Part shown: one piece after another, positions 2,865 to 22,975 of the stretch
Layout of the letters: each line of letters begins with the position of its first letter
Position numbering within the stretch: the stretch's first letter is position 1
Source of the DNA: Spraguea lophii
Taxonomy: Eukaryota > Microsporidia > Spragueidae
Direction of reading: 5' to 3'
Assembly (NCBI GenBank): GCA_001887945.1
Contig: LDOQ01000330.1
Coordinates: forward strand, 1-23,082
DNA length: 23,082 nucleotides
Notes under the pieces: generated by a model
The model's database searches: none
Seen by the model: the letters and a program-made list of their open reading frames with translations, nothing else
What the model was told of the DNA's origin: nothing
Translations under genes and position numbers: made by a program

Positions 2865-4253
2865 TTATTTTTTATTGAGCTTATACAAAATTATATCTCC
2901 ATCTTCTACTATGTAATCTCTTCCTTTTGTTTTGACTAAACCTTTTGCTTTTATATCACTCAATCTCTCCACTGGATTCTCTTCTGTGAATATTTCCTTA
3001 TACTTTATTACTTCTGCTCTTATAAAATTTTTATAAAAATCTGTATGTATTACTTTTCCTGCATTATCTATTGTTTGATCTTTTGTTACGATCCATCCTC
3101 TTACTTCTACTTCACCTGCGGTGAAAAATTTTATAAGGTTGAGACGACTAAATCCTATTTTACTGATTTTTTCTATCATGGTGGGATTTTCTATTTTTGT
3201 GCAAATCGGGGTAAATGGGATTTTGTGGGTTAGTAGGCTTTTAAGGTGTTTGTTGCCTTTTTTGTTAATGTAGTCGGATTCGGTCATGTTCGCGAGAATT
3301 ATTATCGGTTTTATGGACAGTAGGTTTAAATCGGTGATAAATTGTATTTCGGGGGAGGTGAAATTGTGGGCAGTTAATTTTTTTAATATTTCTTCATTCT
3401 TTCTACCTATTATATTATTTGTTATATTTATTTGATTGTTAATATTTGTTGTTTGATTGTTCGTTGTTTGATTGTTAATATTTGTCGTTTGATTTGTATT
3501 GTTGGTATTTGTTGTGGTATTTGTTATATTGTTGGTATTTGTTGTGGTATTTTCTACGGGATTATTATTTTCTATATTTTTACCCTCACTCTTATTCTCA
3601 TTTCCATTATCATTCTTATTCTCACTCTCATTTTTATCCCTCTCACTCTTATCACCATCGTTTTTATCACACTCACTCACTTTCTTATCACCATCACACT
3701 CACTCTTATCACTATCACACTTACCACTTTTAACTTCTTCTAAAATTTCCAAAATAATTCTTACTATTTTCAATTCCCCTTTATTTCTATTCTTACTTTC
3801 TATTCTCTTTAATATTTCTATATCTTTATTAATTAATTCATTTTCTATTACTATGATATCATATACTGGATTTATTGTATTATTAACGTGTATGACCTCT
3901 TCATCTATAAAAGTTCTTACTACATGAAATATACCATCCACTCTTCGTATATTATCTAAAAATTGATTACCCAATCCTTTACCTTCTGACGCACCTTCTA
4001 TCAATCCAGCAATATCCAAAATATTTAAAACAGGAAATATTTGTTTTTTCGGACGATATAATAATGATAACTTGGGAATACGATCGTCAGATATTGTCAT
4101 AATACCTTCATTTGGTGTTGTGGTGCAGAATGGGTAGTTGGCAGCAGGTATAGTAGATTTTGTAAGTAGATTAAATAATGTGGATTTACCAACATTTGGT
4201 AAACCGACAATACCGAAAGATAGATTGTTGCTTCTACGTTGAAATATAGACAT
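2865..4253 (-). CDS. OLA1: Obg-like ATPase 1 (YchF/OLA1 family P-loop NTPase)
   Basis: 462 residues; the family is usually ~360-400. The P-loop is GLPNVGKST (17-25); NYPFCTTTPNEG (39-50) is the switch region; G3 is DIAGLIEGASEGKGLG (80-95); NMTE (322-325) replaces the NKxD of GTPases, as in the ATP-binding YchF/OLA1 branch. The last ~88 residues (from FFTAGEVEVRGW through HTDFYKNFIRAEV to DGDIILYKL) form the TGS domain. The family is a cytosolic, ribosome-associated ATPase linked to translation and stress responses. Residues ~177-282 are an extra Lys/Asp/Glu/Ser then Asn/Thr-rich insertion with TTNINNQ repeats, placed in the helical region between G3 and G4; the catalytic core is intact, so the gene is probably functional. 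The start is ATG at 4253, just before the conserved core, preceded by a CCC-type motif. Confidence 0.95.
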   Translation of the reverse strand: MSIFQRRSNNLSFGIVGLPNVGKSTLFNLLTKSTIPAANYPFCTTTPNEGIMTISDDRIPKLSLLYRPKKQIFPVLNILDIAGLIEGASEGKGLGNQFLDNIRRVDGIFHVVRTFIDEEVIHVNNTINPVYDIIVIENELINKDIEILKRIESKNRNKGELKIVRIILEILEEVKSGKCDSDKSECDGDKKVSECDKNDGDKSERDKNESENKNDNGNENKSEGKNIENNNPVENTTTNTNNITNTTTNTNNTNQTTNINNQTTNNQTTNINNQINITNNIIGRKNEEILKKLTAHNFTSPEIQFITDLNLLSIKPIIILANMTESDYINKKGNKHLKSLLTHKIPFTPICTKIENPTMIEKISKIGFSRLNLIKFFTAGEVEVRGWIVTKDQTIDNAGKVIHTDFYKNFIRAEVIKYKEIFTEENPVERLSDIKAKGLVKTKGRDYIVEDGDIILYKLNKK

Positions 4254-4264
4254 GGGATGGGTAA
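4254..4264 (-). promoter_or_regulatory. CCC-like start-site motif of OLA1
   Basis: On the minus strand the sequence directly before the ATG is TTACCCATCCC, with two CCC triplets inside 11 bases of otherwise AT DNA. CCC-like elements immediately before start codons are a described feature of microsporidian genes. The match supports both the chosen start and the microsporidian assignment, but a single case proves neither. Confidence 0.5.
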
Positions 4265-5650
4265 TAAAAAAATATTAAAAAATATTAAAAATATTGAGAG
4301 ATGATAGAAAATGGATGTAAATTATTGTAAAGATATACGAATGAGTGTATTGATAATAATATATAAATATAATATTAAAAAATGATAGAAAATGATTGTA
4401 TTGATAATAGAAGAATGAACTAAAACGTATTTAGATAATGAATATAAAAATAATTTTTATTCTTTTATTTAATAATAATTTTTTAGTTTTTCAGAGGTCA
4501 TTTGTTTTTCTTATAATTGTAACATCATCTATTTCTACTGTTTTTTAATACGATGGTTTTTATATTGTTATTATTTCTTCTGATAGTTTAAATCTATTAT
4601 AAATCTTTTATTAAATATAATAATTACATTATTCTATGTTAATACAATTAGTATTATTTATATTTTTATATTATACACTGATTTCAATTCATTTGTAAGT
4701 AGATTATATTTTCGATATTTTTAATGTTTTTCTCGATTTCATGTCAAGTGGTTTAATCTAATTATTCTTATATCTATCAATTTAATATATTATGTTTAAT
4801 GTGTAAGATAATTTTTATTGATATATTATATTTAATATGTAATATAATTTTTATTGATGTATTTACTTTTATCTATGTTTTATTATTTGTTGATATCAAT
4901 TTTATTCTATGATTTTTTAATTTTTCGTTTTTTTTTAATTGATATTTATTACAAAATTAGAGACGAATTGTTTTTAATAATTCATTATATAATATTTTTT
5001 CTATATAATGTTTATACGTTATTGTTATATAATATTTATTCTTATAACAATTAGGATATTTTTGTTTATCGATTTTAAGTATAATGGTTTTATTCTAAAT
5101 ATAATATAAATAGGTTTTCTGTTTGTTATATCATATTCTTTTTATTTAATCACGGGAATGATATTATTTACTATTTTATTTATCTATATTTTTTAATTAT
5201 TTATATCTGATATATTATATTCTTATTATGTTATGTTGCAAGTAATGATTATACTCTCAATATAATAATCTCTTAATAGTGGAAATAGTGTTTTGTGGAA
5301 GGTTTTTAAAATTAATAAAAATATGTATATTTATATTTATTTATTTCACATTATATATATTTATTTTGATGATATCTAAAATAATCATAATATTAATTTC
5401 GTTTTTTAATTTCAATATTATGGATTGATTTAAAATATTCTGAAATCAACGAGTTTTCATATGGTTTATACCATGATGTGTGAAGGAATTATTATATATT
5501 TTATTTGTATGGTATTTAGTTGTAAAAAATCTTATATTATATTTAATTTTGTGAAGTTATTAACTTTATATATTATAATTTACGTTTTTTTTATTCTATA
5601 AATATAATTTTAAAGATTAATAATATTTCGGATCTTTTATAATTATTACT
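4265..5650. other. AT-rich gene-free stretch
   Basis: I find no recognisable coding frame on either strand. Short open stretches here (for example 4854-5054) are Leu/Ile/Tyr/Phe-rich and look like random AT sequence. The only clear structure is the 36-bp tandem duplication at 4785-4856. Very old transposon remnants could be present but cannot be read by eye. Confidence 0.5.
4785..4856. repeat. 36-bp tandem duplication
   Basis: Bases 4785-4820 and 4821-4856 are adjacent copies that differ at three positions; in two of them the first copy has G where the second has A. Each copy ends with TAATTTTTATTG. It is a local duplication with no sign of function. Confidence 0.8.
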
Positions 5651-8129: not shown

Positions 8130-9030
8130 TATTGCATCTTTTTGGAAGATTATATATCACATCTAGCATTGTTATTTTCACCACTGATTTCAGAATTATA
8201 AAACATTTTGTCTATTTTATTTTTAACGATTTCGTATTGTTTTTTTAATTCTTATCAAGTTTATACCAATTAGGATAAGAAATTAAAAATGTCAAATTTA
8301 AAGATTGATGCCAACCTTTTAAGATGCTGATTGTTTTAAAGCATATTTAAAATTTCTCTTCTAATATTGACCAAAACGTGTAGGTAAATATATTATTTTT
8401 TTCTCCGATATTAAATTTTAATACAACAATTTTTCTTCCATATATCAAGATATTTCGAGGTTTGTGTACTTCTTTTAATAATTAAAAAAATTGTAAATAA
8501 TATAAATGTTATCATATGAATCTTTGTAAATCCGGATTTGTCTATATTCTTGATTACCCAAAACTCGTATTTTTAAATAAAAATAAAAAAAACGGAAAAA
8601 TAACCATATAATTTCGTTTAATTAAAAAGTTTCTTTATTGATAAATAAGATATCATTTAAAAATTTAAAGAAATACTATCTGGATTCTTTATTAACATTA
8701 ATCTAATAAATGTATTTACTTCTAAATAAGTTATTCTTCAAGTTTGGTTTCTATTGAAATATGTACCAATGTGTATTTCCACATTTAATAGGTATAATTA
8801 TTGTATATAATTGTACAAAACTTTCCAATCCTGATTTAAATATTCCGTCATAATACTATTTTTTTGTGGGGGAGATATTAAGATGTATAATACAGGTTTC
8901 TGTTAAAACATAATTATCTATCTGGATTCTTTAGTTAAAGATCGTATCAAAAAGTCCATTGACATATGCGGTTTCATTTGAATTGGAATCCCATCTTCTA
9001 TAATATTTATATTGTCTTTTTTTTCTTCTG
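8130..9030 (-). pseudogene. Decayed Mutator-like (MULE) transposase
   Basis: Minus-strand frames show, in order: EDGIPIQMKPHMSMDF (~8980-8930); DGIFKSGLESFVQLYTI (first catalytic Asp at 8847-8849), matching the MULE pattern DGTFK..P..F.QLYTIH; then KGWHQSLN and SYPNWYKL followed by ELKKQYEIVKNKIDK (~8320-8200), matching the C-terminal N.VEGWH...HPNIW...LK.E pattern. Stops and frameshifts are many. The upstream end lies next to the left terminus of integrase element A at 9036, so A may have inserted into or beside this MULE. Confidence 0.65.
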
Positions 9031-9035
9031 TAATA

Positions 9036-9200
9036 TTAAATTAAGGTACCTTTAAAAATAAATGTATATAAAAAAATAAAAAATGGGATTTATTTATATT
9101 AAATTATTATATAATATATTATTTTCTCTTGATTTCTAATAATCTTTATATATCAATATTTTAAAAAAATCGTTGTTTTTTGAATAGATCCTGATATAAA
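9036..9200 (+). repeat. Left terminal inverted repeat of element A
   Basis: It starts TAAATTAAGG and runs through AAATAAATGTATAT, ATATATTATTTTCTCTTGATT and TCCTGATATAAAAT. The reverse complement of 10372-10527 follows the same order (ATATATTATTTTTTCTTAATT, TTCCTGATGTAAAT). The outer right flank of element B (18640-18804) carries the same sequence. Confidence 0.65.
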
Positions 9201-9326
9201 ATTAAGACCCCCGTTGTTCATAACGTAAAAAATGAAAAAAATATCAACCGTGAAATTAAAGCCTTAATGGTAAAAATCAAATACTAAATAAGAATAAGAA
9301 TGATTATAAAATGTAAACTTCTCTTC

Positions 9327-10330
9327 GTATTAAAAAATCCATCGTGACAAATCTAATAAAAATAAGGACAAAAAAGAATACAATAATTCCGTTATATATT
9401 TAAGAACAAGAATATATCCAATCGAGCTGAATAAAAACCAAAAAAAAAAGAAATTCAAAATAAAAGCAGACATGATGATACCGTTAAATTATAAAATTTT
9501 ATAAAAATAAACAATTATCCTTTGTAATACATTTTAAAGTATATTATTGGAATAAAAAAGTTCACGAAAGTTGCAGAAAAAACATAAATTCAGCGTTCAA
9601 CGAAATAAAAAAAATAAATTCTATGACATAAAAATAACTGATGTCAAACAGTATTGGGCAACTATTTTATCAACGATGTACACAATCCACATGTTGATCA
9701 AATACACATGCAACTTATTATACGGAAATTTGATAGAATTCAATTGGATATAACACATATATTAGATTATCAATCTGGTAATAATAATTTAAATATATTT
9801 TAAATATGATTAATTATGTTCTTCATGTATTAACAAAACAGCAGAGGAGATGTATATTCACTTAGAAAACATATTTTTAAAATACATTATTCATAATGAA
9901 ATACACATTGATAATTGAAATGAAATTCAATAATAAATTAATGAGTTTTTTGCGTAATAAATATAACGTAAGACATATCCTCGTCGCCCAGGATCACATG
10001 GTCAGATTGAAAGATTTAGGTTCGCAACTAAAAAGAGTTTAATATTCGTAATGTTTTACAGAAAATAAGCGAATATTATTGACGAAATAGCATATCAGTA
10101 TAATATAAAAACATAAACCACGAATGAAACATTATCCAGATTATTTCTAAACACGATTTGCTTTGATAGTAGCAGTAATATCTATAATAGATGTAGGCAT
10201 AATTCCAAATATTATTAAACGAAAAAAAATACTCGTTATAAGAGAATATAAAATGAGATACTTTAATGAACCAACTGACATAAATGAACAATAATTTGAA
10301 GAACAGATGATAATAACCCTAACAATGTCA
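9327..10330 (+). pseudogene. Decayed KRBA2-like (rve) integrase of element A
   Basis: The frames give an N-terminal block (SVIYLRTRIYPIELNKNQ, KKFKIKAD), a zinc-finger-like region (KNKFYDIKITDVK), then the integrase core. First Asp lies in KFDRIQLDI (9747-9749). The second is in HIDN-NEFNNKLMSFLRNKY (9904-9915, frameshifted). The Glu is in HGQIERFRFATKKS (10009-10011). After the core come NIIDEIAYQYN and TNETLSRLFLN, then a family-specific tail ILVIREYKMRYFNE. The gene has stops and several frameshifts. The block before the core (YLRTG.YP..L.KNQ) is the hallmark of KRBA2/SCAND3-type integrases. The open stretch 9571-9753 is one fragment of it. Confidence 0.72.
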
Positions 10331-10371
10331 ATATTAATAACAACGGTAATTAAAAAAACGATTTTATTTAA

Positions 10372-10527
10372 TGGTTGATTTACATCAGGAACCACGCAAA
10401 AAACACAGTGATTATTTCAAATATTAATACGAGTCTATTAGAAATTAAGAAAAAATAATATATTAATATAAATAAATTCCGCTTTTTTATTTTTTACCTA
10501 CACTTATTTTAAGAAAAAGCTTAAATT
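10372..10527 (-). repeat. Right terminal inverted repeat of element A
   Basis: Read on the minus strand it begins TAAATTTAAGCTTTTTC and follows the order of the left repeat down to TTCCTGATGTAAAT. It is diverged, with roughly two-thirds to three-quarters of positions agreeing by eye. Confidence 0.62.
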
Positions 10528-10614
10528 TAAAGATTACAGCATCAATTATTACATCACAAAAATCTTAATCAATCGCATTATTTGTTTAAGGCATTTAACT
10601 TTGGTGTATTAAAT

Positions 10615-17130: not shown

Positions 17131-17350
17131 ATTTCTTATTCTCGTTTAAAAAAAGATTAAATACTTATTTTCTGATCAAAATGTATAAAAAACATATTTT
17201 AAAAAATTATTTTTATTAATAAAAAATTAATATCTTTGTTTTCTACCTTATAAATTTTTATGTTTAAATTGTTTTTATTCTTTATAATTATAATCAAATA
17301 TATAATTTATTGATAAGATAATAATTTAAATAGATTACCATATTGTGGCT

Positions 17351-17462
17351 AAAATTAAGGCGCAATAGTAAAAATCAAATATTAAATAAAATAATTACAT
17401 AGATATATTTATTATAAAAAATAAGAATGCTTATAAAATGTAAATTTATTTTTTAAAAAAAT
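17351..17462 (+). repeat. Left inner terminal inverted repeat of element B
   Basis: Pairs with 18505-18597 on the other strand. It carries an insertion near 17392-17420 relative to its partner. The interior side adjoins the end of the integrase frame at ~17475. Confidence 0.65.
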
Positions 17463-17474
17463 ATTTTTAATCAT

Positions 17475-18515
17475 TGCTGTTGTTATTATTAACATTATTG
17501 GGGATAGTATTACTCGTCCTTCTAGCTGTTGTTCTATTTATGCTAGCTATTTCATTAAAACATCTCATTCTATATTCTCATATAACTAGTATTTCTTCCC
17601 CATTCAACAATATTTGGGAATTATGGCCATTCCTATTATATATATTATTGCATTATTAAATCCAGCGGTGTTTAGAAATAATCTGTCTTGCGTTTCATTC
17701 ACAGTTCTATATTTTTTATATGTATTGATATGTTATTTCATCAATAATATTCACCCATTTTCTTGTATTTCTGTATAACATTACAAATATTACACTTCTT
17801 TTGATTGTAAAATTAAATCTTTCAATTTGACCCTACGACTCTGGATGAAGTGGGCGACCAAACATATGTCTTATATTATATTTGTCACACAAAAAATTTA
17901 TTGACCTATTGTTAAATTCTCCGGAAATAATACACCCTAAAAAAGATTTTCAAATGGTTATATATTTCGTCTACTGTTTTATTAATAACGGAAAACATCA
18001 TGCAAATTTTGTTGTACAATCGATCATAGTTAAAATATATTTAAAGTTATTATTATCAGATTAATAATCTAACAAATATGCTATATCTAATTGAATTCTA
18101 TCAAATTTTTGTATAATAATGATGGGGGATATTTGATCAATATATGTACCATGTGTACCAGAAATAAAACAATTATCCAATACTGCTTTTATATTGGTTA
18201 TTTTTATATTATAAAATTTATTTTTTATTTCATTAAAAGTTGAATTTATATCTTTATGGCAACTTTCATAATTTTCAATGCATTCTTCTTTTAATCCAAC
18301 AATATATTCTGAAATATATTCCAGAAAATGATTATTTGTTTTTATAAAAATTTTATAATTTAATAATAACATTTTATCTGCTTTTATTTTAAATTTCTTG
18401 TTTTGGTTTTTAGTTAGATTAATCGGATATAGTCCAGTTCTTAAATATATAACGGAATCATTATATTCTTCTTTTGTTTTTGTTTTTATTAAATTGCCAT
18501 GATGAATTTTTTAAA
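17475..18515 (-). pseudogene. KRBA2-like (rve) integrase of element B, lightly decayed
   Basis: Almost continuous minus-strand coding over ~340 codons. The N-terminal block reads GNLIKTKTKEEYNDSVIYL, RTGLYPINLTKNQ and KADKMLLLNYKIFIK; the zinc-finger-like part is ESCHKDINSTFNEIKNKFYN then DNCFIS, with Ser in place of the last Cys. First catalytic Asp: FDRIQLDIAYLLDY (18085-18087), then FKYILTMIDCTTKFAWCFP. The second catalytic Asp-Asn is missing before SGEFNNRSINFLCDKYNIRH. The Glu is in ES-stop-GQIERFNFTIKRS (17821-17823). The family tail is MRCFNEIASINRTTARR. Stops and a few frameshifts inactivate it. The open stretches 18061-18372 (-), 17474-17659 (+) and 17882-18064 (+) are a fragment and two shadows of it. 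The start may lie in the terminal repeat (ATGCAAACTTCTC), so the repeat may hold the promoter. Confidence 0.75.
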
Positions 18516-18804
18516 AAGAGAAGTTTGCATTTTATAAACATAATTTTATAAGTGTTTTTATTTAATATTTGATTTTACTATTGAGGTCTTAATTTTGCGA
18601 TTAATACTTTTTTTTATTTTTTACATTATAAATAATGGGATTCTAATTTTACATCAGGAATTATTCAAAAAATATGGATTTTTTAAATATTAATATATAG
18701 AGACAAACGGAGATTATGACAAATAATATATTATATAATAGTTTAATATAAACAAATTCCATTTTTTATATACATTTATTTTTAAAAAAAGCCTTAATTT
18801 TATT
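18505..18804 (-). repeat. Right terminal inverted repeat of element B
   Basis: The inner part (18505-18597) pairs with 17351-17462 in this element. The outer part (18640-18804; AATTTTACATCAGGAAT, AATAATATATTATAT, TACATTTATTTTTAAA) matches the right repeat of element A in the same orientation and the reverse complement of A's left repeat. Beyond 18804 similarity fades. Confidence 0.65.
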
Positions 18805-19117
18805 CAACATGAATAGATTATCATATGCTTTAAAATAATGATAAAGACAATATTATATTGTTTATATATATAATTTATAATATAATATAATATAATCATT
18901 GATGTTTAATTCGGTATCCTATATACATGGTAATTCAGAAAAAAAGATAAAAATTAATTTTTAAATAAAATGTGTTCGTTTTAATAAATTACGTATAATA
19001 AATTGGGAATATACCATTAAAAACATTACTTTTTTCTTCCGCATTTTAATATAAAATCTTTTAAAAAATCATCGTTGTTATTTTAAGGTCGATTACATCT
19101 TTTAGAATATATTCTTT
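18805..19117. other. AT-rich spacer
   Basis: Contains a pure TA-type run (TATAATATAATATAATATAA at ~18876-18896) and nothing recognisable as coding. The 3' end of the mariner remnant on the minus strand probably reaches into ~19080. Confidence 0.4.
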
Positions 19118-19923
19118 TTAAACATCCCTTCTGGTTACATTTGATCTTTTATTTGATACATAGTTGTTAAGACAATTAAAGGTATTTTCTACGGGATCGA
19201 ATTCAGGAAAAGTAAATGAGCAAAAATAATACCCTATGTCTTCCTCTATCAAATAAGATAATATTTTGTTAGTTTTATGGAATCCGACATCATTTAATAT
19301 TAAGATTATATTTTTATTGAATATATTTTTATCATACGTTTCTCTAATAATTACTTTAAAACATTCCATCTTATATGTACCATCTAAAATCTTATGGTGT
19401 ATTATACTAGCTGGTGAAAAAATAGCACGCATGGAAATATTTTGATCTTTACTAAATACAATATAAGTAACAGTCGATATATTTTTTTGGGGGTATACCC
19501 ATATGAATTGCTTATGTCGAGGCAAACCTACATTTATCTAAAACAAAACCGTTTTGTCCCTCGTTTCAATAAATGTGAGCCGTAACTAATAATTTGTTTT
19601 CTATGATCATTTATAAGATAACCGAAAACCTCCTTTTCAACTTTTTTTAATTATACCACTAGTCTTAACAATTTTATGTATAATAGACCGAGATACATAA
19701 CCGCTCTTGCTATATATTCTTCGCCTCTTTATTTTCCGATCTCCTGTCTTTTTACCACGTAATCCCTAAAGTTTTCATTTATAAATTTCAAAAGTTTATA
19801 TACATAATTTTGAGCGGGATTAGGTATTTTTATAGTGATATGTGTGTCGCACCCGTTCTTATGCATTTACCTATTCAAAAGACCTTTTATTACAGCAATA
19901 AACGTTTTTCTTTGTGTAACCAT
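19118..19923 (-). pseudogene. Tc1/mariner DD34E transposase, best preserved of the set
   Basis: It starts at a credible ATG on the minus strand at 19923 (MVTQRKTFIAVIKGLLN) and ends after SNKRSNVTRRDV at 19118, with frameshifts and stops in the first half (for example a TAG/TAA around 19860 and 19740). The order is EEYIARAV...; GYLINDHRKQIISYG; FVLDKCRFAST with first Asp at 19536-19538 (expected IDE, here DK); IWVYPQKNISTV; IILILNDVGFHKT, where the canonical Asp is Asn (AAT at 19292-19294); and FDPVENTFNCLNNYV with Glu at 19187-19189. There are 34 residues between the second and third sites. The continuous 19118-19525 stretch begins with TTG and is only the C-terminal half; the full remnant is ~268 codons against ~340 for an intact family member. 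Confidence 0.78.
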
Positions 19924-19929
19924 TAGGGT

Positions 19930-21790
19930 GGAAATATAATATTTAAAATCCTGTATACGAAAAAGACTCTAAATATACGTAATTTATTAAAATAAATACA
20001 TTTTATTCAAAAAATAAATTTTTTTCTGAATTCACCTCTAATCATGTGTTTATAAATTTTCTTTAATTTATTCTAATAATACGGTTTCCATAATTCAGAA
20101 TTGTTATATCTTACTGGTATTTAAATATTAACCAAAGATTGTAAAAGACTCTAGTTTTTATTATTAATTCAATGGAATAATTTATATCCATATTAGCTGA
20201 TATAATAATGTTTTTTATAAAGAATAATTTGGAGACAATAATCAAAAAAATCTTTTACATAAAACAACTTTGATATATTTTTTAACATGATAGAACATCA
20301 ATAATAATAATACATTATACCTATATATACTTTAACCCAATATAAAATTATTTTTTTAATCATGGTATAGTTCGAAATCTATTCACGATTTAATGACATC
20401 CTACTTTTGAAAACATCTAGAAGGATAGATATAAATTTAAATAGTCATTAAAATACATGGTATATTTAAATTATATTTCTGTATTAAAGATCGCTATAAT
20501 CATTCACATATAAACGATATGTTAATTGTTCATATATAATTAAAGATAATAATTATAGATATCTATACTTTCTAATTCAGTATTATTCTTAATTATACCT
20601 TTTAATTATAGAGAAAACACACTGCTTATACTTTAAATTATATCATAACATACAATCTAATTATTATTATCTCAATATTAATGAATTTAAATCTCTTTAT
20701 TAACATAATAATGTTTAAATAATCATAGAATAAATGTACATGTTTATACTAGTTAATCATTGTTGGTATTGAAAATATGCTATCCTATGGAAATATTTAT
20801 ATTATAATTTCAAATGATTAATTATTCAACAATCTTCCTCTTTACATATATTATTTTTTATTTTGAATTTATCTGGATAAGAAATTCAAATATGCTATCT
20901 TTAGGATTTAATTACCACCGTACAACTATTGTATTTTAATATTATTTATTATTAATAATTTTAAGTAATTTATATCTTTATCTTTCCACCTTTTGATTTT
21001 ATTTAAAATAAATTATTTTTTAAAGGGTTTATCGAAGGAAAATATATGTTTCTTTTTTATAACCCCTATGCTTATTAATAATGATTATTAAAGAATAATT
21101 ATATTTTATATATATGAGAGGAATAATTATTTAAGCGTTGATGTTATTAAGATGTAAGTGGAAACAAGTTTTATAAATTTAAAGAAGTTGAATATAAAAG
21201 AAATAATTATACTGAAAAACAGATGATTTTAATAATTTAATTACAATAATAAATGAATTGAATTGTAGGAGATTCGCAAAAAAATATTATATTTATATCT
21301 ATAATGTTATATAATTGTATTATTTACCTCTATTAATCTATATTTTATTGTTATAATTGTTTTTTAAGATTACAATAGTTAGTGATATAGAATAAGAAAT
21401 GAAAATTTTTATAAAAAGCATGCTCAAATAATGATAAATATGGATTTAAATGATAAAATAAACACGTTAATTTTTTAAAATATATATTTATTTATTAACA
21501 TTCTTATTGGATAATAGAATTGATAATTTATGAATAGATTTTAATTTATAGTTAAATAAATATTATATACGCTATAAATTTTTTATTTAATAATAATATT
21601 GATTCAGTTTATATTTAATTTGACAACTAACTTCAAAAGCCTTTCAAGCAATATACAATCTTATTACATTTGTTACTGCCATATCTTATAATTTTAGAAA
21701 ATTTTCTTTATTCATAATTTTTCTAAGATAGATAGAATTGATTTGATTAGATTTACAACTTCTAATAGTTTATTATTGCATTTATGCGGG
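19930..21790. other. AT-rich gene-free stretch
   Basis: Nearly 1.9 kb in which I find no frame, RNA gene or clear repeat. AAAAGACTCTA occurs twice, at ~19961 and ~20144. Similar phrases around AAATATGCTATC recur at ~20775 and ~20889. These are too short to interpret. The composition is uniform AT-rich background. Confidence 0.5.
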
Positions 21791-21966: not shown

Positions 21967-22975
21967 ATGAAATATATCATTATAAGATACTCTTTAATGT
22001 TACGTAATAAATTATTACAAATTGAATACATTATTATAACCGGGAATTCTGATATACAAACTCCAGATATAAATCGAAAGGAATTTGAAGACTTAAAAAC
22101 CATGACAAATAAAGAAATTGTCAATCTTTTCCAGTTAACTGGAATGCTTCCACAAAGATATAGATACGTGGGTGTAATAGAATATTAACGGCGGTCATTG
22201 GCAGAATAACATATCACCTAAATTTTGATGTAAATTTACCGATTTCCAGAATAAAACAAATTATAATATATTAAAAGATACCATATTTAATGATACAAAG
22301 CTACAGTACGGGGAAGTACTTGAAATACTTTATCGGTTTAGCTGTCGAAGAACAGTAGCTGATAGCGCAGAGACTCTTGGCAATAGTAAAACAACTATAA
22401 TGAGTTTTTATAAGCTATTTAAGTCAAGTTTGATATATTTTCTTGAAAAAAACATCTGAAAAATTAGGGGGAGATGGGATAATAATCCTTTTTTATAAAA
22501 CTCCAATGACAACAAGACATGGAAATACTGGAGCTACTAGATCTTCAAACACTGTCTGGGTTGTTGGTGCGGTGGACATCCACAGTAGGAAATGTTTCTT
22601 ATCATTTTTACCGTCGAGATCAAGAGAAGATCTATTTAGATTTTTAGAAGAGTGGATTTTATCAGGATCGGTAATACACACTGATTCCCACAGATCGCAT
22701 TTAATATTATCTTCTTGGGGATATATACATTTCACGATTAACAATTCAATAGAGTTAGTAACGAGGACAGGAATACATACCAATTGGATTGAAGGTATTT
22801 TGGGTATTCTTAAAAATCAAAGGGAAATATGAACCCATTGGTCTGGTATGGGTAATTTAAATATTTTTTTATCGGAATTTTGTTTTAGATATATATATGA
22901 CGGATGAGACAGGAGAAATGCAGTATTGAAGCTTCTATATGTTTTAAAATATGTCAAGAATACATTTTATTTTAT
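21967..22975 (+). pseudogene. Merlin transposase, frameshifted, first catalytic residue lost
   Basis: The coding sequence runs through all three frames. Frame 1 (from ATG 21967, to 22188): FEDLKTMTNKEIVNLFQLTG then MLPQRYRY, the Merlin N-terminus. Frame 2 (~22253-22440): NILKDTIFNDTKL and RTVADSAETLGNSKTTIMSF, the helix-turn-helix part. Frame 3 (22443-22832): SEKLGGDGIIILFYKTPMTT, VWVVGAVDIHSRKCFLSFLP, HTDSHRSH and TRTGIHTNWIEGILGILKN. Then, after another shift, MGNLNIFLSEFCFRYIYD to ~22975. Second Asp (22683-22685) and Glu (22791-22793) are intact; the first catalytic pair, normally Asp-Glu, reads Tyr-Lys (22494-22499). It is dead, but the least decayed Merlin copy here. The stretch 22443-22832 starts at TTG, mid-gene. 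Confidence 0.82.

Follow-up and report, generated by a model that had tools for sequence, protein, structure and literature searches.

The window analysed here is the whole of contig C58 (23,082 nucleotides) in a Spraguea lophii genome of 5,273,041 bases and 73 contigs. It holds one element in two copies on opposite strands, as a preliminary description had noticed: copy A on the plus strand (9029-10538) and copy B on the minus strand (17343-18809). Copy A had rightly been recognised as an element, but its limits had been set at 9036 and 10527, and the real ends were found slightly further out, with TGTAATATTAAATTAAGG at 9029 and ...AAGATTACA at 10538. The features of the two copies are as follows.

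9029-10538, plus strand: copy A, 1510 bp, heavily decayed; ends mapped and inverted ends tested; flanks agree at 4/16 positions, no target-site duplication
9029-9301, plus strand: left terminal inverted repeat of A, with the L-type tip TGTAATATTAAATT; 9038-9301 is 80% identical to an arm of the copy on contig C35
9038-9050, plus strand: iteron-like motif AAATTAAGGCCCC (up to three substitutions), one of three in the left arm of A; the others start at 9199 and 9253
9352-10347, plus strand: integrase gene remnant of A, in several frames with many stops; protein matches at 9352-9651, 9441-9797 and 9814-10347
10379-10538, minus strand: right terminal inverted repeat of A, an inverted match to 9029-9200
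17327-17342, plus strand: left target-site duplication of B, 14/16 identical to 18810-18825
17343-18809, minus strand: copy B, 1467 bp; R-type tip at 18809, opposite end fixed by the duplication
17343-17460, plus strand: arm of B 3' of the gene, shortened, with a degenerate tip
17470-18516, minus strand: integrase gene remnant of B, 349 codons in a single frame with 12 stops; the rve match itself is seen in the copy on contig C48
18555-18809, minus strand: arm of B 5' of the gene, with the R-type tip TGTTGAATAAAATT
18788-18800, minus strand: iteron-like motif of B; two more begin at 18595 (minus strand) and 17352 (plus strand)
18810-18825, plus strand: right target-site duplication of B, partner of 17327-17342

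Elsewhere in the window, an OLA1/YchF GTPase gene (2865-4274, minus strand) encodes a protein 98% identical over 99% to that of Spraguea lophii 42_110, which bears out a fish microsporidian as the host; it contains a long low-complexity insert, and the BLASTP alignments to the other species listed cover 26-40%. An SSU rRNA search gave no match. A 673-aa open frame at 719-2740 is highly asparagine-rich and matches the SAP domain with 31.5 bits (cut-off 23.9). There are also a Tc1/mariner-like element at 18949-20022, with a DDE_3 fragment (26.0 bits, cut-off 28.6) and 49-bp inverted repeats (88% identity), and a Merlin/IS1595-type transposase fragment at 22434-22832 (DDE_Tnp_IS1595, 55.5 bits). 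No tRNA or Rfam match was found in the window.

The ends of copy A aligned in inverted orientation with a score of 179, compared to a best score of 91 in 300 dinucleotide shuffles, whereas in direct orientation they scored 51 (null maximum 79). For copy B, the scores were 127 inverted (null maximum 87) and 76 direct (null maximum 80). The termini of both copies are thus inverted, above the shuffle background, while direct alignment is at background in both, and no reverse transcriptase match was found within the window. These results confirm the earlier observation of an integrase gene between inverted terminal repeats, and agree with a DNA transposon that carries a gypsy/retroviral-type integrase and lacks LTRs. 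The two copies carry the same integrase gene and left end (72% identity over 1.38 kb), with the right arm of B being shortened and its tip degenerate. The dimensions first estimated for the element also proved approximately right: terminal repeats of 250-300 bp compare with arms of about 365 bp on C35 and of 228 and 246 bp on C66, and a single gene of about 340 codons compares with the 349-codon frame of B and a 360-aa relative from Dictyocoela.

A DNA search of the genome gave 60 matches, which we grouped into at least 23 places on 17 contigs, namely A and B, 20 fetched regions and C5:118182 (within L045); these counts are lower bounds. A tip-pattern search (19 matches; one in the reversed control) added C34:102160, C12:128126 and C17:12705. 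Copies of this family (family 1) with both ends measure 1.2-1.6 kb. The longest open stretches noted were of 149 aa (B) and 141 aa (C66 copy), and no intact integrase gene of the family was seen among the genome copies, so that activity is presumed from relatives. Because the copies B and C44 have at least 490 bp of flank in common at high identity, they represent one insertion, later duplicated; at least the left part of the Tc1/mariner-like element lies inside this common flank. Three truncated ends (L015, L024 and L026, on C5, C45 and C23) also have a common flank, which over 300 bp is 95% (C5) and 93% (C23) identical to that of C45, and derive from one old insertion copied inside a larger duplication. 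One scan each of viral contigs and of prokaryote contigs found no relatives of the element.

C-to-T changes among the copies fell on 27/479 CA, 16/239 CT, 8/133 CC and 1/23 CG sites; RIP-like decay was rejected, as these changes show no CpA preference. AT-to-GC transitions account for 69/110 of the private changes of copy A (9301-10400) versus 50/132 in five other copies together. Of its AT-to-GC changes, 22 were testable in codons, with 16 being silent, five derived and one open; since they are mostly silent, copy A may be an outgroup of the other copies.

Two further repeat families were encountered. Family 2 (C73:51280-53709, the same stretch as L051:981-3410) is bounded by 95-bp inverted arms (89% identity) with the tips TGTNGTATATAATT; it contains a fragment of the zinc-finger domain Integrase_H2C2 (H2C2) scoring over the cut-off, and its inner open frame resembles, by eye, a piece of another transposase. 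Family 3 is the repeat into which the C66 copy inserted, and bears fragments 31-39% identical to the Dictyocoela protein. Several of its copies (L011 near 2661, L044, L047, L064 and L065) show a tRNA B-box-like TTCGAATCC on the 5' side. ARAGORN, run on nine loci, reported a tRNA in L068 only (tRNA-Thr), and Rfam gave no match on six loci at E up to 0.1. The family-3 repeat that received the C66 copy is broken, next to that copy, by another insertion with 49-bp inverted repeats (92% identity; L011:4959-6154 on C66).

The nature of the encoded protein was examined in the copies and in relatives. A profile search of the B fragment returned neither an H2C2 nor an rve match, and B is without the stretch holding the second catalytic Asp (an alignment gap). 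The C48 copy, translated with read-through, scored 28.0 bits against rve, under the cut-off of 32.6, and its matches in the PDB were retroviral integrases (best 8e-8). A protein search with this translation gave no homologue up to an E-value of 1e-3; a seven-row alignment as query found 17 proteins at E up to 10, most of them unnamed. KRBA2 was not a name seen in either search, so that the earlier label "KRBA2-like" was not confirmed. The top of the 17 comprised a Dictyocoela muelleri protein (P0121), a metagenome protein (P0122), two S. lophii fragments and a Cucumispora protein (P0125). P0121, annotated as a "Pro-Pol polyprotein" of 360 aa, is intact and 46% identical to B over 95%, while P0122 (351 aa) is 36% identical to B. 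P0121 matches Integrase_H2C2 with 30.1 bits (cut-off 25.5) and rve with 55.4 bits (cut-off 32.6). The H2C2 cut-off was also exceeded by P0122 and the family-2 fragment of L051, with L050 and P0125 falling under it, and the rve cut-off by P0122 and P0125. In P0121, the Asp in HSDNG is separated by 35 residues from the Glu in QIERFN (manual count). Its AlphaFold model is of moderate quality (mean pLDDT 74, pTM 0.48), with a helical N part, strands of a core and a final 65 residues below 50 pLDDT; the best Foldseek matches in the PDB were foamy virus integrases (E 1e-17), with poor overall superposition (TM 0.4, rmsd 17). In a tree of 19 rows, B and the C48 copy were joined with 100/100 support and the whole microsporidian group with 59/81; we gave this tree no weight owing to the latter support and several long branches.

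We then analysed the flanks. Direct repeats of 15-16 bp adjoin the tips in four of the six copies with both ends: C35 (16/16 identical), C66 (14/16), B (14/16) and C34 (15/15). The latter (L053:1161-1200; C34:102160-102199) is a 40-bp remnant consisting of two element tips alone within a perfect 15-bp repeat, and looks like collapsed inverted repeats. Among 200,000 pairs drawn at random from the window and the 20 fetched regions, identity of at least 14/16 arose three times. The two both-ended copies without a duplication are A and the family-2 copy on C73, and none of the six shows a 4/4 or 5/5 repeat at its tips. The C66 copy sits within another repeat, so its joined flanks could be searched for; they match nine other places across the joint (the remaining two rows are that copy's own flanks), and at all nine paralogous empty sites the 16-mer is present once, showing that this copy inserted with a 16-bp duplication. 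A search for an empty site of the C35 copy found none; its left flank (L013; C35:37193-37277) is a repeat of about 85 bp with at least 39 further matches (40 of 174 candidates scored); in four contigs (C15, C25, C54 and C56) it lies at about bases 48-130 from the start. When flanks were searched from 22 ends, with two anchors off by a few bases and many copies truncated, five ends (three copies) gave a shuffle-rare match and 17 gave none, including the C44 end, which belongs to the same insertion as B.

The tips read TGTAG, TGTCG, TGTGG, TGTTG and, in A and C22, TGTAA, which likewise ends in a purine, and a few decayed tips deviate. Two tip types occur among the copies, L (TGTNGTATTAAATT) and R (TGTTGAATAAAATT), and the three copies with two clear tips (C35, C66 and the C34 remnant) carry L at one end and R at the other. 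The right tip of A is L-like (4/14 positions differ from L, seven from R), which would make A L+L; that of B is too degenerate for typing, and in C17 another R-type tip lies 1.3 kb away. In seven copies (C35, C16, C22, A, C48, C1 and C45) the 5' side of the gene is next to L or the 3' side next to R, and the opposite holds for four (C17, C66, B with its duplicate C44, and C30). As the gene is found in either orientation between the tips, recombination between the arms probably inverts the internal part, a reading that draws on 9-bp tips of decayed copies. Beyond the outer 9 bases, where they show three differences, the C35 arms match perfectly over about 356 bp, and those of C66 are identical over 219 bp except for a single 4-bp indel; larger matches of other arms to the C35 arm show 69-94% identity. 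The simplest reading of these sequences is that the arms recombine, with conversion equalising them and crossing over inverting the inside, while the tips stay. The iteron-like motif occurs eight times in the whole window, six of them inside the arms of A and B, and is absent from the right arm of A. AAATTRAGRCCCC, present four times per C35 arm, is a candidate binding site.

We propose that A and B are, very probably, dead copies of a short DNA transposon with an integrase of the retroviral DDE type. In this mechanism, a single protein of about 350 aa, combining an HHCC zinc finger with a DD35E core, would bind the iterated AAATTAAGGCCCC motifs in the long inverted arms, pair the TGT/ACA tips and join them to the target at two phosphodiesters 15-16 bp apart, and host gap repair would yield the 15-16 bp duplication. 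After insertion, the arms would go on recombining, which would equalise them internal to their outer 9 bases and flip the part between them relative to the tips. The integrase-like protein would serve as the transposase and bind the arm motifs, and movement would presumably be by cut-and-paste. The stagger of 15-16 bp may be the usual 4-5 bp plus one helical turn.

The preliminary description had assigned the element to the Ginger type. This holds for the H2C2 and DDE layout and for the TGTNR tips, which match Ginger2, but not for the 15-16 bp duplications or the shorter element. It is accordingly unlikely that A and B belong to an ordinary Ginger2/Tdd element whose 15-16 bp repeats would be exceptional or fortuitous, even though the domains, the tips and the long arms would all fit one, Ginger2 having TGTNR tips and inverted repeats of 45-297 bp in the part of the source consulted (PMC2836005). 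In the same part, Ginger1 and Ginger2 make target-site duplications of 4-5 bp and autonomous Ginger elements measure about 2.65 kb and up (PMC2836005), whereas here four copies at separate sites carry 15-16 bp repeats, none of the six both-ended copies carries a 4/4 or 5/5 repeat, all nine empty sites of C66 agree with the long duplication, and the element is shorter than those autonomous ones.

The duplications would instead suit a microsporidian transposon of the IS481EU type, a group described in the relevant sections of PMC10045372 as having TGT...ACA ends and duplications of about 4, 15 or 25 bp; moreover, the best NCBIfam model was IS481 (45.9 bits). We nevertheless regard this reading as improbable, since IS481EU elements are described there as having no HHCC motif and inverted repeats mostly below 50 bp (PMC10045372). 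The model score is not specific either: of the gypsy integrase pieces of the same genome, three scored 47.5-56.5 bits and a fourth, short one 22.3 bits against the IS481 model, so that we rejected it as proof of IS481 kinship. With a Ginger2-like enzyme and tips and an IS481EU-like stagger, the element is, by the tests done, placed in neither group.

A gypsy retrotransposon wreck, in which an integrase gene was trapped between two oppositely oriented LTRs, is very improbable. Gypsy elements are present in the genome, their enzyme is of the same fold class, and the TGT/ACA tips are LTR-like; however, the same inverted layout recurs in copies at different sites, with their own 15-16 bp duplications, and the direct ends of A and B are at background. 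In the 20 fetched regions, a gypsy-type reverse transcriptase was found only at C44, about 1.6 kb off, along with a weak 39-aa match at C23 (L026). As the earlier reading held, a Polinton/Maverick remnant can be dismissed as next to incredible: six of the 17 protein matches, each of them weak, pair rve with a chromodomain in a layout resembling that of Polintons, but a genome search for DNA_pol_B_2 gave no match, the both-ended family-1 copies are at most 1.6 kb, and P0121 and P0122 have no chromodomain.

That the element duplicates 15-16 bp of target DNA, unlike its nearest known relatives, is the new point of this study. Stagger length is held to follow the geometry of the integrase assembly, with 4-6 bp in retroviruses (PMC10045372, in part). 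A Ginger-like integrase that has a zinc finger and makes a 15-16 bp stagger would uncouple the long stagger from the IS481 enzyme, which would then have either several origins or a greater age than supposed for that stagger; with the intact Dictyocoela protein, this idea can be tested. We also consider it possible, though somewhat short of an even chance, that such integrase transposons form a microsporidian lineage of their own rank, with a retroviral-type zinc-finger enzyme attacking the target strands one helical turn wider than in retroviruses and Ginger, and with inverted arms through which the inside is flipped and homogenised, the two tips remaining distinct.

In the portion of a microsporidian survey consulted, the elements listed are Mariner/Tc1, piggyBac, Merlin, helitron-like, LTR and non-LTR elements, with Ginger absent from the list, and partial sequences or the integrase domain sufficed to recognise some LTR families (PMC4202319). 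The main text of the S. lophii genome paper, as far as available, contains "integrase" and "gypsy" zero times (PMC3749934), and a literature search confined to open-licence PMC articles, partly in excerpt, brought up no article describing Ginger-like elements from microsporidia. Our results suggest that DNA transposons may be the source of some microsporidian "Pol" or rve proteins filed as LTR retrotransposon pieces. The available part of a Nosema paper describes a MITE family that has TGT ends and duplications of 5-6 bp (PMC4405373); this family is a possible relative of the element.

Among known systems, the rve core is shared with the gypsy integrases found in this genome (L038, L039 and L040), but these adjoin a reverse transcriptase or its RNase H. 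P0121 and P0122 are H2C2 and rve proteins that match the gene of the element in length, and are intact, unlike the Spraguea copies. Ginger1 makes 4-bp CCGG/CCGT duplications, compared to 15-16 bp here. The IS481EU/Banshee elements of parabasalids, as presented in the cited sections, are alike in their TGT...ACA tips, 15-16 bp duplications and one-gene build, and differ from the present element in its HHCC zinc finger (seen in relatives), its arms of 228-365 bp (C66 and C35) and its microsporidian host (PMC10045372). Ginger2/Tdd elements, from the sections at hand, share the H2C2 and DDE integrase, the TGTNR tips and the long inverted repeats, but have duplications of 4-5 bp rather than 15-16 bp, autonomous lengths of 2.75-6.7 kb rather than 1.2-1.6 kb, and arms of 45-297 bp where those in Spraguea reach about 365 bp (PMC2836005).
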